Positions 24,919 through 32,447 of a stretch of 64,000 bases of DNA are shown here, piece by piece. The stretch is from Dehalococcoidia bacterium (GTDB lineage Bacteria > Chloroflexota > Dehalococcoidia > Lucifugimonadales > UBA3495). The translations under genes were made by a program, and so were the position numbers. The stretch lies in the NCBI GenBank assembly GCA_022827095.1, contig JAJDTP010000005.1, positions 310,001 to 374,000 of the forward strand. Direction: 5' to 3'. Each line of letters opens with the position of its first letter. The first letter of the stretch is position 1. The notes beneath the pieces are model-generated. The model was not told where the DNA came from. It saw nothing but the letters and a program-made list of their open reading frames with translations, and ran no database searches.

Positions 24919-25359
24919 GTGCCTACATATGTCGATCCGTCCGCCTGCAACGCCTGCGCCGGCGTGCACGGCGGACCCCAGTGCGTCTATATCTGTCCGA
25001 ACGACCTGATGGTGCTGGACGGGATGGTGAACAAGGGCAGCAACCAGGAGCCCGACATGTGCTCCGAGTGCTACGCCTGCGTGAAACTCTGCCCTGAAAA
25101 CGCGATACACGTTCGCGGCTACGCAGACTTCGTTCCGCTGGGGGCCGAGGTGCAGCCTCATTACGAAGGGCAGGACATCGTCTGGGATGTCACGTTCCGC
25201 GACGGCCGGACGGAGCACTTCCGGTTCGCGTCGCGGTCGACGCCGTGGGGGAGCATCGACCCGTACGCGACGGTGGGTCCGGCGGACGCGGACGCGCTGA
25301 GGACGCAGGTTCTGTTCGGGGAACCGGAGTATCTGATGCTGCCTGAGGAGAGCGCCTAG
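24919..25359 (+). CDS. aprB: Adenylylsulfate (APS) reductase beta subunit, no alpha subunit nearby
   Basis: 146 residues from GTG 24919 with a GAGGAG site. MPTYVDPSACNAC, CVYICPNDLMVLD, NQEPDMCSECYACVKLCPENAI, VRGYADFVPLGA and GSIDPYATV are near-exact AprB marks. Two 4Fe-4S clusters are coordinated by Cys10, 13, 22, 26 and Cys48, 51, 54, 58. In the dissimilatory enzyme AprB passes electrons to the FAD of AprA for APS/sulfite interconversion. Neither aprA, sat, qmo nor dsr is within 20 kb on either side, so this is either a separated subunit or an AprB-like ferredoxin reused by another partner. The C-terminal wrap region is short. Confidence 0.85.
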   Translation: MPTYVDPSACNACAGVHGGPQCVYICPNDLMVLDGMVNKGSNQEPDMCSECYACVKLCPENAIHVRGYADFVPLGAEVQPHYEGQDIVWDVTFRDGRTEHFRFASRSTPWGSIDPYATVGPADADALRTQVLFGEPEYLMLPEESA

Positions 25360-27374: not shown

Positions 27375-28817
27375 TTACGAATTGATCCGAGGCTGTCGCG
27401 CCCGGATGGCGAAGGCAATAGCGGCGGCGGCCGCAGTACACGCGCCGACGCGGAAGACGTCGCGGTAGGCCAGCAGAAAGGCCGCGTCCGGCGGGCGGGT
27501 CGCGGCGTACAGGTCGCTGAGGGCGGAGAAGACCGCGCCGACGATGGCGACGCAAAGGACGGTTCCCGAGGCCTGCGCCAGCGACATCGCCCCCGACGCG
27601 GTACCGTAGCGGTCAGCCGGGATGGTGCCCAGCATCAGGGCGTAGGCGGCCGACTGGTACCAGCCCACGCCGAGGCCGACCGCTGCAATCCCGACGGCGG
27701 GGTGCCAGACCGCCGAGTTGGCATCCAGCATGGACATGGCGAGGAGCCCGACGGCCGAGGTCAGCAGGCCAGCCGCGCCCACGGGGCGCACGCCCCAGCG
27801 GTCGCACAGCCAGCCGCCGACCGGCGAGGACAGGATGTTGGAGGTGGACATAACCGCCAGCATGATGCCCAGCGTCACCGGGCCGCGGCCCAGGGCGTCG
27901 GTGATGTAGAACGGGAAGATGAACCAGATCACGAACTGCGAGAAATGGCCGAGGAACATGGCGCCGACGGCGGTCTGGAAGCCGGACAACCGGGCCAGCG
28001 CGCCGGGCAGCACCGGGGATGCAGCGGATCGCTCGACCCTAACCAGGGCGACAAGGATCGGGGGAGATGCGGCGAGGAGGGCGAGCACCGGGATCGAGGT
28101 CCATCCGATGGCTTGGCCCAGACGCAGGCCGATCATGAGACACAGCAACAGGGAGAGGACGAGGGCGGAACCGGGCAGGTCGAACCGGGGTTTATCCGTG
28201 TCAGTTGGCTGGTTCCCGAGCGTTCGGGGGATGGAAAAAAGGCCGATAATAAGGGCGAGACCGGCCAGGGGGAGACGGCCGGCGAATACCGCCGGCCAGT
28301 CGAACAGTTGAATCAGGGGACCGGCGCCCAGGGTGGACGTGACCATGCCGAGGGCGAGGCTGGCGGAGGTGAATCCCATGGACAGGCCGCGACGATGCTC
28401 GGGGAAGACCGAAGCGGCGATGGCCGGAGCGGTGCTGTAGAGGCAGCCGGTGCCCAGGGCCTGCAGGACTCGGAAACCGACCAGCACCTCCAGAGTCGGC
28501 GACAGGGACAGGCAAATCATGGACACGACGTAGGTCGCGGTGCCGAACAGATAGACGAGCCTGAGACCGAAGCGGTCGGCGAACGCGCCGGCGCCCAGGG
28601 CGAGGCCGGCGCGGGTGGCGATGAAGACTACGATCACCCACTGGACGGAGGCGAGGTCGGTCTCGAAGGCGTCGCGCATGGCCGGCAGCCCGACGTTGAC
28701 CGCGAAGTCCAGGGAGGCCAGGACCATGCCGAGGGCGGCGGCGGATGCCAGCAGGAGGGTGCGCCAGGTAATCCGACCGGGCATCGCCGGCACTTTGGTG
28801 TCGGATTGGGAGCGCAT
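27375..28817 (-). CDS. MFS drug:H+ antiporter-like transporter (DHA2-like, about 14 segments)
   Basis: 480 residues. Features include LASLDFAVNVGLPAMRDAFETDLASVQWVIVVF at helix 1-2 (the DHA2 LD-x-TIVNVALP position), motif A GAFADRFGLRLVYLFG, and motif C-like LGMVTSTLGAGPLI. The extra helix pair in the middle gives about 14 segments. It is convergent with the glycosyltransferase gene (22 bases apart). A minus-strand TACAAT at 28831-28826 lies 9 bases upstream of the ATG, suggesting a very short leader. Confidence 0.84.
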   Translation of the reverse strand: MRSQSDTKVPAMPGRITWRTLLLASAAALGMVLASLDFAVNVGLPAMRDAFETDLASVQWVIVVFIATRAGLALGAGAFADRFGLRLVYLFGTATYVVSMICLSLSPTLEVLVGFRVLQALGTGCLYSTAPAIAASVFPEHRRGLSMGFTSASLALGMVTSTLGAGPLIQLFDWPAVFAGRLPLAGLALIIGLFSIPRTLGNQPTDTDKPRFDLPGSALVLSLLLCLMIGLRLGQAIGWTSIPVLALLAASPPILVALVRVERSAASPVLPGALARLSGFQTAVGAMFLGHFSQFVIWFIFPFYITDALGRGPVTLGIMLAVMSTSNILSSPVGGWLCDRWGVRPVGAAGLLTSAVGLLAMSMLDANSAVWHPAVGIAAVGLGVGWYQSAAYALMLGTIPADRYGTASGAMSLAQASGTVLCVAIVGAVFSALSDLYAATRPPDAAFLLAYRDVFRVGACTAAAAAIAFAIRARQPRINS

Positions 28818-29096: not shown

Positions 29097-30944
29097 TTAC
29101 CCGAGGCCGTGTTCGGCGAGGACGGGGCGGATGGCCTCGACCAGGGGAGCCAGGTACTCGTTCCAGTCGCCGACGATCCCGTAGTCGGCGGCGCGGAAGA
29201 TGGCGGCGCGGTGGTTGCGGTTGATGGCAAGGATCACGCCGGCCTTCTGGATGCCCACGGTGTGGTTGAACGCGCCGCGGATTCCAACGGCGAGGTAGAC
29301 CTGGGGGGCGATGGTGCGCCCGCTGATACCCACCTGGATGTGGTGGGGGAGCCAGCCGGAGTGCACGACGTTCCGGGTGGTGCAGATGGACGCCCCGATG
29401 CTGGATGCGAGCTGCTGGGCGGCGGGCACGTTCTCCTCGCCGATGCCCATGCCCAGGCCGACTACGACCTCAGCGGAGGTAAGTTCCAGCGCGCCGTGTT
29501 CTTCCGAGATGTGCTCGTCGATCAGCGCGACGTCGACATCGTCGGTGGGGGAGGCCGGGATGGATTCGACGATGGCCGTGGCGCCGGGTTCTGGAACGCC
29601 GGGAGACAGGACGCCGGGGCGGAGGGTGACCAGGTTGGGAAGGGTTTTCGAGAGGATGGGAGCGACGACGTTGCCGCCGAGGGCCGGCTTGAGCTGGACA
29701 AGCTGGCCGCCGTCGTTGATTTCGAGGTCGATGGCGTCGCCGGTGAGGCCGAGCCGGCGACGGGCGGCAATGCGGGCGGCCAGGTCGCGGCCGTCGGCGG
29801 TGGCGGCGAACAGGATGGCGTACGGTGGTTGTTCGCCGATGGCGTCGGAGAGGGCGCGGGAGACGCCGCGGCCGCAGAGGACGCCGAGGTTCGCCATGTC
29901 CAGGGTGAGGATGCGATCGGCGCCGGCTTCGGCGAGTTGGGTGGTGACATCCGCAGATGGATGGCCGCCCTGGATGACGACGGCGACCACCTCGCTTTGG
30001 GTGATGGGAGTGAGAGCGCGGGCTTTGCCGAGCATTTCCAGAGTCACCTGTCGCACACCGTCAGCGGCCAGTTCAGCAACGACCCAGATGCTGCGGTCAC
30101 CGCCTGAGTAGCGGGGCAACGCGGCGTTTGCGGTGTCAGAACTAGCCTCCGATGCCAAGGAGGTCAGACGCTCCCGAAGGCTGTCCGCGACCTGGCGGGC
30201 CGCGTCCTCGGGAGTCTCGTCGCGGATGACGACGGCGAGGCGGTCGGGCTCGACGAGGCGGATGTCCTCAACCCAGGTGGGGGAACCGTCGAGGCCAAAC
30301 AGGGAGAGGTCGTTGGTCAGGTCGGAGCAGGCGAGCTGTTCGATGCTGCGTTCCTGGGCCTCGGTCATCTCATCGCGGCCGGGATAGCGCTCCTGACCAG
30401 CGCCCTCGGTGACGCAGACGACGGCGGGCAGCGGGCATTCAATGACCTGGTAACCCTCGTCGGTGGCGCGCTCGGCTACGATACGATTGCCGGAGCGGTC
30501 CACGTCCAGTTTGCGGACGTTGCTGATGTGGGGCAGGCCCATGAGCTCGGCGACTTCTGGTCCGACCTGGCCGGTCTCGGCGTCGCTGCTGTTGCGTCCG
30601 CAGACGATGAGATCGGGGGATTCGCGCTGGAGGGCCAGGGCCAGGGCCTGGGCGGTCGCCAGGGTGTCGCTGCCGGCGAGGGCGCGGTCAGAGAGCAGGA
30701 TGCCCCGGTCGGCTCCCAGGGCGTAGCATTGGGTCAGGCCCTCGGCGGCGTTGGGCGGACCCATGGACAAGGCGACGACGGAATCCTCGGCACTGGACTT
30801 GAGGTCGACGGCCATGTTGATGCCGAGCAGGTCGAATGGGTTGATCTCGGAGGGGACGCCCTCGCGCTGGATCACCTTGTTTTCGTAGTCGAACTCGATG
30901 CGGGACACCACGGGGACGAACTTGACGCAGACCGCGATTTTCAT
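29097..30944 (-). CDS. Fused electron transfer flavoprotein (beta-alpha)
   Basis: 615 residues in which an EtfB-like N-terminal half is joined to an EtfA-like C-terminal half. The beta part (1-about 255) has MKIAVCVKFVP, NPFDLLGINMAVDLK, GADRGILLSD, DLIVCGRNSSDAETGQVGPEVAELMGLPHIS. The alpha part (about 285-615) ends in the FAD domain: ISGRTIAPQVYLAVGIRGAF, AGVILAINRN, IFRAADYGIVGDWNEYLAPL. Normally these are two genes; here they are one frame with no internal stop. ETFs carry electrons from acyl-CoA and other dehydrogenases to the quinone pool. It lies 22 bases after pncB and has GGAG before the ATG. Confidence 0.92.
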   Translation of the reverse strand: MKIAVCVKFVPVVSRIEFDYENKVIQREGVPSEINPFDLLGINMAVDLKSSAEDSVVALSMGPPNAAEGLTQCYALGADRGILLSDRALAGSDTLATAQALALALQRESPDLIVCGRNSSDAETGQVGPEVAELMGLPHISNVRKLDVDRSGNRIVAERATDEGYQVIECPLPAVVCVTEGAGQERYPGRDEMTEAQERSIEQLACSDLTNDLSLFGLDGSPTWVEDIRLVEPDRLAVVIRDETPEDAARQVADSLRERLTSLASEASSDTANAALPRYSGGDRSIWVVAELAADGVRQVTLEMLGKARALTPITQSEVVAVVIQGGHPSADVTTQLAEAGADRILTLDMANLGVLCGRGVSRALSDAIGEQPPYAILFAATADGRDLAARIAARRRLGLTGDAIDLEINDGGQLVQLKPALGGNVVAPILSKTLPNLVTLRPGVLSPGVPEPGATAIVESIPASPTDDVDVALIDEHISEEHGALELTSAEVVVGLGMGIGEENVPAAQQLASSIGASICTTRNVVHSGWLPHHIQVGISGRTIAPQVYLAVGIRGAFNHTVGIQKAGVILAINRNHRAAIFRAADYGIVGDWNEYLAPLVEAIRPVLAEHGLG

Positions 30945-30966: not shown

Positions 30967-32349
30967 TTATGAGGTTAGGGCGGCGGTCAGTCGGCCGCGT
31001 ATCTGGGACTCCAGGAGGCTGAGTTCCGCGCTGATTGACACGGGGAAATGGTCAGGTTGGCGGAGGCGACGATGGGCCTGGGGCAATCGGGAAAGGCCGT
31101 CGGCCACGCGCTGGCGGGCGTCGGCGATTGCGCTGGGCGGGATGGCGCGACGGCCGTCCGTCATCGCCTGGATCAGCACGGGTTCTGCATCCGGTACGTC
31201 CTCGGTTGCCAGTCCGATGACGTCGGCGGACATCATGCCCTCCGGGTCGTGTTGGCGAAAGACCTGCTTGGCGGCGGGCAGGGTCTCCTTGCCCTCGCTG
31301 AGCTTCATCACTGGCCGGCCGTCGTAACTGACCATCTTGTACACCATGTCGCAGGACGGGGCGTCGGCGGAAACGCCAACGCGGGTGCCGACGCCGAACA
31401 TGTCGATGGGCGCGCCGCCGGTGATGAGACGGTCGATTTCGTATTCGTCGAGGCCGCCGCTGGCGACGATGCGGACGTAGTCGAGTCCGGCGTAGTCGAG
31501 GATGCGTCGAACCTGGCGGCTGAGGGCGTCGAAGTCGCCGGAGTCGAGACGGACGCCGGTGAGGCGATGGCCGTCGCTCTCCATCTCGTGGGCGACCTTG
31601 ACGGCGGCGTGGGCGGCGTTGATGGTGTCGTAGGTGTCGAGCAGGAGGATGCTGCGGTCAGGGAACATGCGGGAGTAGGCGCGGAAGGCGGCGATTTCAG
31701 AGTCGAAGCTGGTGACGTAGGAATGGGCCATGGTGCCGGTGGGCGGGATGCCGTAGCGGCGGGCGGCGAGGACGTTGCTGGTCGCGCCGAAACCCGCAAT
31801 ATATGATGAGCGGGCCATCTTGATGCTGGCCTCGGTTCCGTGGGTGCGGCGGGCGGCGAAGTCGGCGATGGGCCGGCCACGGGCGGCCTGGACGCAGCGG
31901 GCGGACTTGGTGGCCAGCAGGGTCTGGTACTGGACCTGGTTCATGACGATGGTTTCGGCCAACTGGGCGGCGATGATGGGGCCAGTGACCTCGAGGACCG
32001 GCTCGTGGGTGAAGAACAGGGCGCCCTCGGGCATGGCGCGGACGCTGCCGGTGAAACGGAAGTCACGCAGGTATTCCAGGAAGTCGGCGGTGAAGATGCT
32101 GGTGCTGCGCAGGTACTCGATGCTGTCGGTGTCGAAGGACAGGGCTTCTAGGCAGTCCACCGCATCATCAACGCCAGCGGCGACGAGGTAGCCGCGGTCG
32201 GGCGGGTACTCGCGCACGTACATGCTGAACGCGGCCTCGCCATGGATGCCTTCGGCGAAGTAGGACTGGGCCATGGTCAGCTCGTAGAGATCGGTGAGCA
32301 GGCCGATTTCGCCGGCGGGCAACGGCAGGAAGGGGGTGTCGTTCGGCAT
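30967..32349 (-). CDS. pncB: Nicotinate phosphoribosyltransferase
   Basis: Makes nicotinate mononucleotide from nicotinate and PRPP for NAD salvage. 460 residues from ATG 32349 (a TTG 9 bases earlier is possible). GLLTDLYELTMAQSYF (about 15-30), the FAARRTHGTEA loop with the catalytic His, GTMAHSYV, LLLDTYDT, GVRLDSGDF and FGVGTRVG are all present. It shares a direction and a 22-base gap with the fused ETF gene. A minus-strand GATAAT (32406-32401) may be its -10. Confidence 0.92.
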   Translation of the reverse strand: MPNDTPFLPLPAGEIGLLTDLYELTMAQSYFAEGIHGEAAFSMYVREYPPDRGYLVAAGVDDAVDCLEALSFDTDSIEYLRSTSIFTADFLEYLRDFRFTGSVRAMPEGALFFTHEPVLEVTGPIIAAQLAETIVMNQVQYQTLLATKSARCVQAARGRPIADFAARRTHGTEASIKMARSSYIAGFGATSNVLAARRYGIPPTGTMAHSYVTSFDSEIAAFRAYSRMFPDRSILLLDTYDTINAAHAAVKVAHEMESDGHRLTGVRLDSGDFDALSRQVRRILDYAGLDYVRIVASGGLDEYEIDRLITGGAPIDMFGVGTRVGVSADAPSCDMVYKMVSYDGRPVMKLSEGKETLPAAKQVFRQHDPEGMMSADVIGLATEDVPDAEPVLIQAMTDGRRAIPPSAIADARQRVADGLSRLPQAHRRLRQPDHFPVSISAELSLLESQIRGRLTAALTS

Positions 32350-32447
32350 GGGCAGCAAGGGCGGGGTTGCGGAAACGGCTGGATCGTAGGGGATGCTGGC
32401 ATTATCGGGCGGGGTATGGGGAGAGTCAAACAGGGCTTGAGTAGTGG

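Follow-up and report, generated by a model that had tools for sequence, protein, structure and literature searches.

The window analysed here, a stretch of 64,000 nucleotides, carries on its minus strand an electron transfer flavoprotein (ETF) whose beta and alpha subunits are encoded as one polypeptide. ETFs are electron carriers that normally consist of two paired proteins. The genes and sites considered below are the following:

29097–30944, minus strand: fused EtfB-EtfA, 615 aa; ORF started by ATG, with no internal stop
30174–30944, minus strand: EtfB (beta) half, residues 1–257; Pfam PF01012 at 24–204; PDB matches LctB, 5ol2_B and CarD
30096–30173, minus strand: linker, residues 258–283, variable
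29100–30095, minus strand: EtfA (alpha) half with the FAD-binding domain, residues 284–615; PF00766 at 487–566; PDB matches CarE, 5ol2_A and LctC
30579–30581, minus strand: codon of Ala122, aligned with Gly123 of A. fermentans EtfB
29688–29690, minus strand: Lys419 codon; in the alignments this residue falls on the RPXFGG arginine (Arg140 of T. maritima EtfB)
30967–32358, minus strand: nicotinate phosphoribosyltransferase (NAPRTase), 22 bp upstream of the fused ETF on the same strand
27375–28817, minus strand: MFS transporter, downstream of the fused ETF

As the preliminary description had it, EtfB and EtfA, the FAD domain included, lie in a single uninterrupted frame of 615 residues. In Pfam, two stretches match ETF (PF01012, 232 bits) and residues 487–566 match ETF_alpha (PF00766), both families above the curated cut-offs, which makes the protein an electron transfer flavoprotein by Pfam; the NCBIfam matches all fall below cut-off, the best with 177.9 bits against 600. 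The AlphaFold2 model, for which the input alignment held 32 sequences, has a pLDDT of 90.2 and a pTM of 0.89, and the top 48 Foldseek matches to it are all ETF chains or ETF-related. Among solved proteins, the best scores go to subunits of CarCDE, Bcd-EtfAB, Ldh-EtfAB, the A. fermentans Etf and EtfABCX. The earlier suggestion that a fusion fixes the stoichiometry at 1:1 is a weak argument, since an ordinary ETF is a heterodimer with that ratio in any case.

The fusion is genuine. The region 30,080–30,180, where a frameshift had been suspected, corresponds to the linker (30096–30173), and in 11 congeneric homologues (79–93% identity) the gene is full-length, in one frame and free of stops. A full-length single-frame fusion was found in 12 of the 14 genomes of the genus, the window's genome counted, and in all 10 genomes taken from the family's other genera; an assembly frameshift is thereby ruled out, and the occurrence of the same fusion in other Chloroflexota, for which a search had been proposed, is confirmed. 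One of the two exceptions is the congener G408 (locus L170), with a frame change inside the linker that is read as a small indel because no clean restart is visible. The other, congener G407, yielded no fused copy and only weaker ETF matches. Across 43 fused rows the linker measures 19–42 residues (median 26), and the model's pLDDT is lowest in a ten-residue block inside it (271–280, mean 66). Pooled over congeneric comparisons with a simple counting script, dN/dS amounts to 0.08 for EtfB, 0.37 for the linker and 0.14 for EtfA.

Within the phylum, which the nearest named relatives indicate to be Chloroflexota, 317 of 400 genomes have a match to the fused ETF, and in at least 20 of them, the window's own included, the match is full-length and free of stops; G386 comes on top of these. 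A scan of named genomes confirmed 585 loci, and the best 80 were retained. All 15 of these with at least 39% identity are fused in a single frame (two clipped by a contig edge at the 3' end and one at the 5' end), and the remaining 65 of the best 80 comprise 6 fused and 59 split loci. The deposited names of the fused-clade loci include Dehalococcoidia, SAR202, Anaerolineales, Desulfurellaceae, Binatota, Deltaproteobacteria, Blastocatellia (Acidobacteriota), Actinobacteria and Thermoplasmata MAGs; two fused copies on Rhodococcus plasmids were both verified as single frames. A tree of 87 rows and 589 columns was built with a quick IQ-TREE run, with SH-aLRT as the only support, after removal of the trait columns 122, 123 and 419; its root is the midpoint used for drawing. 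The 37 fused rows with Lys419 form one side of a branch with an SH-aLRT of 99, and the four fusions in the tree that come from f48, another family of the phylum (L051–L054), and L056 are placed among the split rows, the positions of L057, L131 and L056 being unsure on account of their long branches. The idea of a lineage-specific ETF therefore stands insofar as the clade is distinct, but not in its narrow sense, since the clade spans several phyla and Rhodococcus plasmids, which rules out a restriction of the fusion to the Dehalococcoidia lineage. By parsimony the fused or split state requires three changes on the tree, so the fusion would have arisen more than once, a count that by itself does not distinguish gains from losses.

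The fused ETF is a known domain architecture and occurs in some archaea; a classification of ETFs is reportedly due to Garcia Costas et al. in 2017. Judged by titles and abstract openings, no description of a fused EtfBA was found in the open-licence literature, by which we do not claim its absence from print.

According to the available part of PMC10734219, bifurcating (group 2) ETFs are marked by the motifs RXGV, GXXSPTXV and RPXFGG; in T. maritima EtfB the Arg of the last of these, Arg140, lies 3.1 Å from N5 of the bifurcating FAD, and the R140Q and R140M changes in EtfABCX abolish the reduction of ferredoxin. In the available part of PMC12630350, Gly123 of A. fermentans EtfB is described as invariant in bifurcating ETFs, with a bulkier residue in canonical ETFs. 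The window protein keeps the first two motifs, as REGV at 27–30 (with Arg27) and GLDGSPTWV at 217–225, but has Lys419 in place of the Arg of RPXFGG and Ala122 in place of the Gly. Ala122 is still small and is thus not the bulky residue of canonical ETFs; because this position stays small, the sequence suggests that the EtfB half leaves space for a second FAD.

Lys419 is invariant in two alignments of the fused clade (34 and 32 rows) and occurs in all 37 fused rows on the clade side of the branch, even where identity with the window protein falls to about 32%. Overall it was found in 39/47 fused versus 4/107 split proteins, and in combination with a small residue at position 122 in 39/47 fused versus 0/107 split. 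The 8 fused rows that lack Lys419 all have Arg; they are the seven f48 rows and L056. At position 122, the 38 fused-Lys rows tallied have Ala (27 rows), Ser (7) or Gly (4), the close relative L059 being one of those with Gly. The residue is not exclusive to the fused clade. The initial counts were 38/43 fused and 0/79 split, and a further 4 fused and 28 split rows, for 8 of the latter of which the DNA examined contained only the EtfA frame, brought in four split ETFs (L184, L185, L194 and L211) in which Lys takes the Arg140 position. Position 122 is Thr in three of these, and the nearest EtfB to L194, about 1 kb away, has Asp; they are possibly another ETF subgroup. The replacement of Arg by Lys at the flavin site is more telling than the fusion itself.

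The genome to which the window belongs is 97.65% complete. The preliminary description had noted the lack of fixABCX partners and had recommended a look for ETF:quinone oxidoreductase (ETF-QO) genes; no fixC/fixX-like gene lies beside the fused ETF in the window, and PF05187 and PF21162, the domains of ETF-QO and FixC/FixX type, have no match in the genome. This absence is not absolute, because of the completeness figure and because, among 14 genomes, the PF21162 control was positive in just 2 and the PF05187 control in just 3. The genome does encode an iron-sulfur protein on contig C5, at about 554 kb, with two CCG stretches and a 4Fe-4S domain by Pfam and a membrane part recognized by eye, which makes it a candidate EMO/EtfD-like protein. 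It also contains 19 matches to acyl-CoA dehydrogenases (ACADs; PF00441) and a COX1-family protein, from which aerobic respiration is likely. A second ETF, encoded by two genes on contig C11, looks canonical, with Trp at position 122, and may be the one that actually works with the EMO-like protein and with many of the ACADs. Elsewhere in the window, at 24919–25359 on the plus strand, a gene for the beta subunit of adenylyl-sulfate reductase (aprB) exceeds the NCBIfam cut-off; no aprA was seen beside it, and a match to aprA above cut-off (923 bits) is found on another contig (C8:69146–70966).

The NAPRTase gene lies upstream of the ETF on the same strand in all 11 loci examined within the family, for which 24 genomes were covered by the fusion count. 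It is also upstream of the ETF in L059 and L167, and is absent from that place in L168, L169 and L171. NAPRTase is an NAD-salvage gene, and in L166 and L167 it shares 4 bp with the fused ETF. Of 42 loci examined for the MFS gene, just three have it next to the ETF: the window's own (L176), L162 and L175. An ACAD1-ACAD2 pair follows the ETF in 6 of the 11 same-family loci and in L059, which could itself be one of the same-family genomes, in the order NAPRTase-ETF-ACAD-ACAD. The pair is not beside the ETF at the window's locus and at 4 more of the 11; in the window's genome it is located on contig C14, with 96% and 92% identity to the pair of L174. Beyond the family, a scan of 43 of 53 putative operon neighbours revealed no conserved neighbour. 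The commonest neighbour family across the clade, RidA/L-PSP (PF01042), accounts for just 4 of these 43, and no clade-wide conserved operon was found; by eye, its members were assigned to the flanks of L039, L040 and L062. On plasmid pROB02 of R. opacus B4, a rubredoxin gene and the fused ETF share 4 bp, with genes for ring-hydroxylating dioxygenases near. On pRHL1 of R. jostii RHA1 the gene that overlaps the ETF encodes a Rieske-domain protein (Rieske ferredoxin), and the overlap is 4 or 10 bp according to which start is taken. A separate fused ETF, at L056:2077–7775 on the minus strand, lies near an EMO/EtfD-like iron-sulfur protein and an ORF that, by eye, resembles an acyl-CoA dehydrogenase.

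On balance we favour the view that the product is a single-chain ETF of the FixAB/bifurcating-type lineage, which would connect the ACAD pair to the quinone pool via the EMO/EtfD-like protein. In ETFs, the EtfA domain swings between electron donor and acceptor. The flavin occupancy, donor, acceptor and direction that we infer are accordingly conditional: electrons from acyl-CoA dehydrogenases, probably the C14 pair, would pass onto the FAD of the mobile C-terminal EtfA domain, which within the single chain would move from donor to acceptor and back on the flexible linker, and the EMO/EtfD-like iron-sulfur protein would take them on to the quinone pool; the EtfB half might retain its space for a second flavin. 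Since the Arg that tunes the FAD is Lys throughout the clade, such an ETF might work without bifurcation or with altered potentials, and Lys419 in itself suggests that bifurcation is altered or lost. Several observations count against this view: the ACAD pair is away from the ETF at the window's locus and at 4 more of the 11, neighbours vary beyond the family and are a rubredoxin or a Rieske protein in the two Rhodococcus copies, the genome has its second, canonical-looking ETF, Lys419 turns up in 4/107 split ETFs, and 4/38 fused-Lys rows keep Gly at position 122. More tentatively, the fused clade might form a class of its own, of single-chain ETFs with two flavins and Lys for Arg, adapted to aerobic cells, in which electrons derived from NADH or acyl-CoA would be delivered to quinone or to a small redox protein, with bifurcation absent or altered.

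It seems unlikely that the protein is a true bifurcating or confurcating ETF in which Lys419 takes over from Arg, with NADH feeding a second FAD bound by EtfB, from which electrons would be divided between an ACAD/quinone branch and a low-potential ferredoxin. Such a role would fit the top sequence matches, which are bifurcating ETFs, the retention of RXGV and GSPTXV, and the small residue at position 122, which in L059 is even Gly; moreover, in the available part of PMC10734219, Lys409 of HdrA is placed 3.4 Å from its bifurcating FAD. However, the T. maritima Arg140Gln and Arg140Met variants of the same source lose ferredoxin reduction, the Gly given as invariant in the available part of PMC12630350 is Ala or Ser in 34/38 fused-Lys rows, no FixC/FixX domains were found in the genome, and the COX1 family suggests an aerobe. 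We consider still less probable a reductase-like ETF that would carry electrons from NADH or an acyl-CoA dehydrogenase to a rubredoxin or Rieske ferredoxin serving oxygenases. The gene overlaps on pROB02 and pRHL1, along with the dioxygenase genes of the former, point in this direction, but these are two cases only and L057 sits on a very long branch, the window's gene has no rubredoxin or Rieske neighbour, and neither appears among the 25 commonest of 89 families from the 43 putative operon neighbours. Least probable is an ordinary ETF with subunits fused by chance and function unchanged, for although the fusion arose more than once by parsimony and the f48 fusions keep Arg, L053 with an ETF-QO-type gene adjoining, so that fusion alone need not confer a special function, Lys419 as a neutral lineage marker alongside the linker would hardly persist in all 37 clade rows, nor is the bulky residue of canonical ETFs present at position 122.

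What determines whether an ETF bifurcates has been probed by mutation of the Arg to Gln or Met (available part of PMC10734219). Here dozens of natural ETFs carry Lys at the Arg140 position, with the other motifs of the bifurcating type, and as these variants come in a one-gene and presumably easily expressed format, the role of the residue can be tested directly. For an ETF of this family, with a Dehalococcoidia MAG as its nearest named relative, the ACAD pair offers a partner hypothesis. Taken by itself the fusion is a modest finding; the notable part is that it goes together with a fixed Arg-to-Lys change at a key flavin site.

Among known systems, the bifurcating-type EtfAB proteins (Bcd-EtfAB of C. 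difficile, 5ol2; CarDE, 6fah; LctBC, 7qh2; T. maritima EtfABCX, 7koe) have the same domain set and fold as the fused ETF, with 31–35% identity in structural alignments, and share with it RXGV, GSPTXV and a small residue at the second-FAD position. In contrast to them, the fused ETF is one chain, has Lys419 as the equivalent of Arg140 and Ala as that of Gly123, and is without FixC/FixX; no N-terminal ferredoxin domain was detected by Pfam, and no ACAD or lactate dehydrogenase gene adjoins it in the window. The canonical ETFs of human and Paracoccus resemble it in fold and FAD domain, and the ACADs of the genome are likely donors, but it differs from them in the absence of a bulky residue at position 122, in the lack of ETF-QO domain matches and in being fused. 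The Rhodococcus plasmid protein annotated as an FAD-binding protein (WP_012687240.1 on pROB02; RHA1 pRHL1) is the same EtfB-EtfA fusion, with 36–40% identity and Lys at 419, and its neighbour is a rubredoxin or Rieske gene rather than NAPRTase or an ACAD. The f48 proteins (L051–L054 and L212–L214) likewise join EtfB and EtfA in one frame, but keep Arg and, as far as the L051–L054 rows are concerned, occupy another place in the tree. In L053 the next gene carries checked ETF-QO domains, and by eye a similar gene follows in L051, L052 and L054. This arrangement was seen in the f48 group only, and so is ruled out as a general one for fused ETFs; within that group it would be a two-gene module leading from ETF to quinone.
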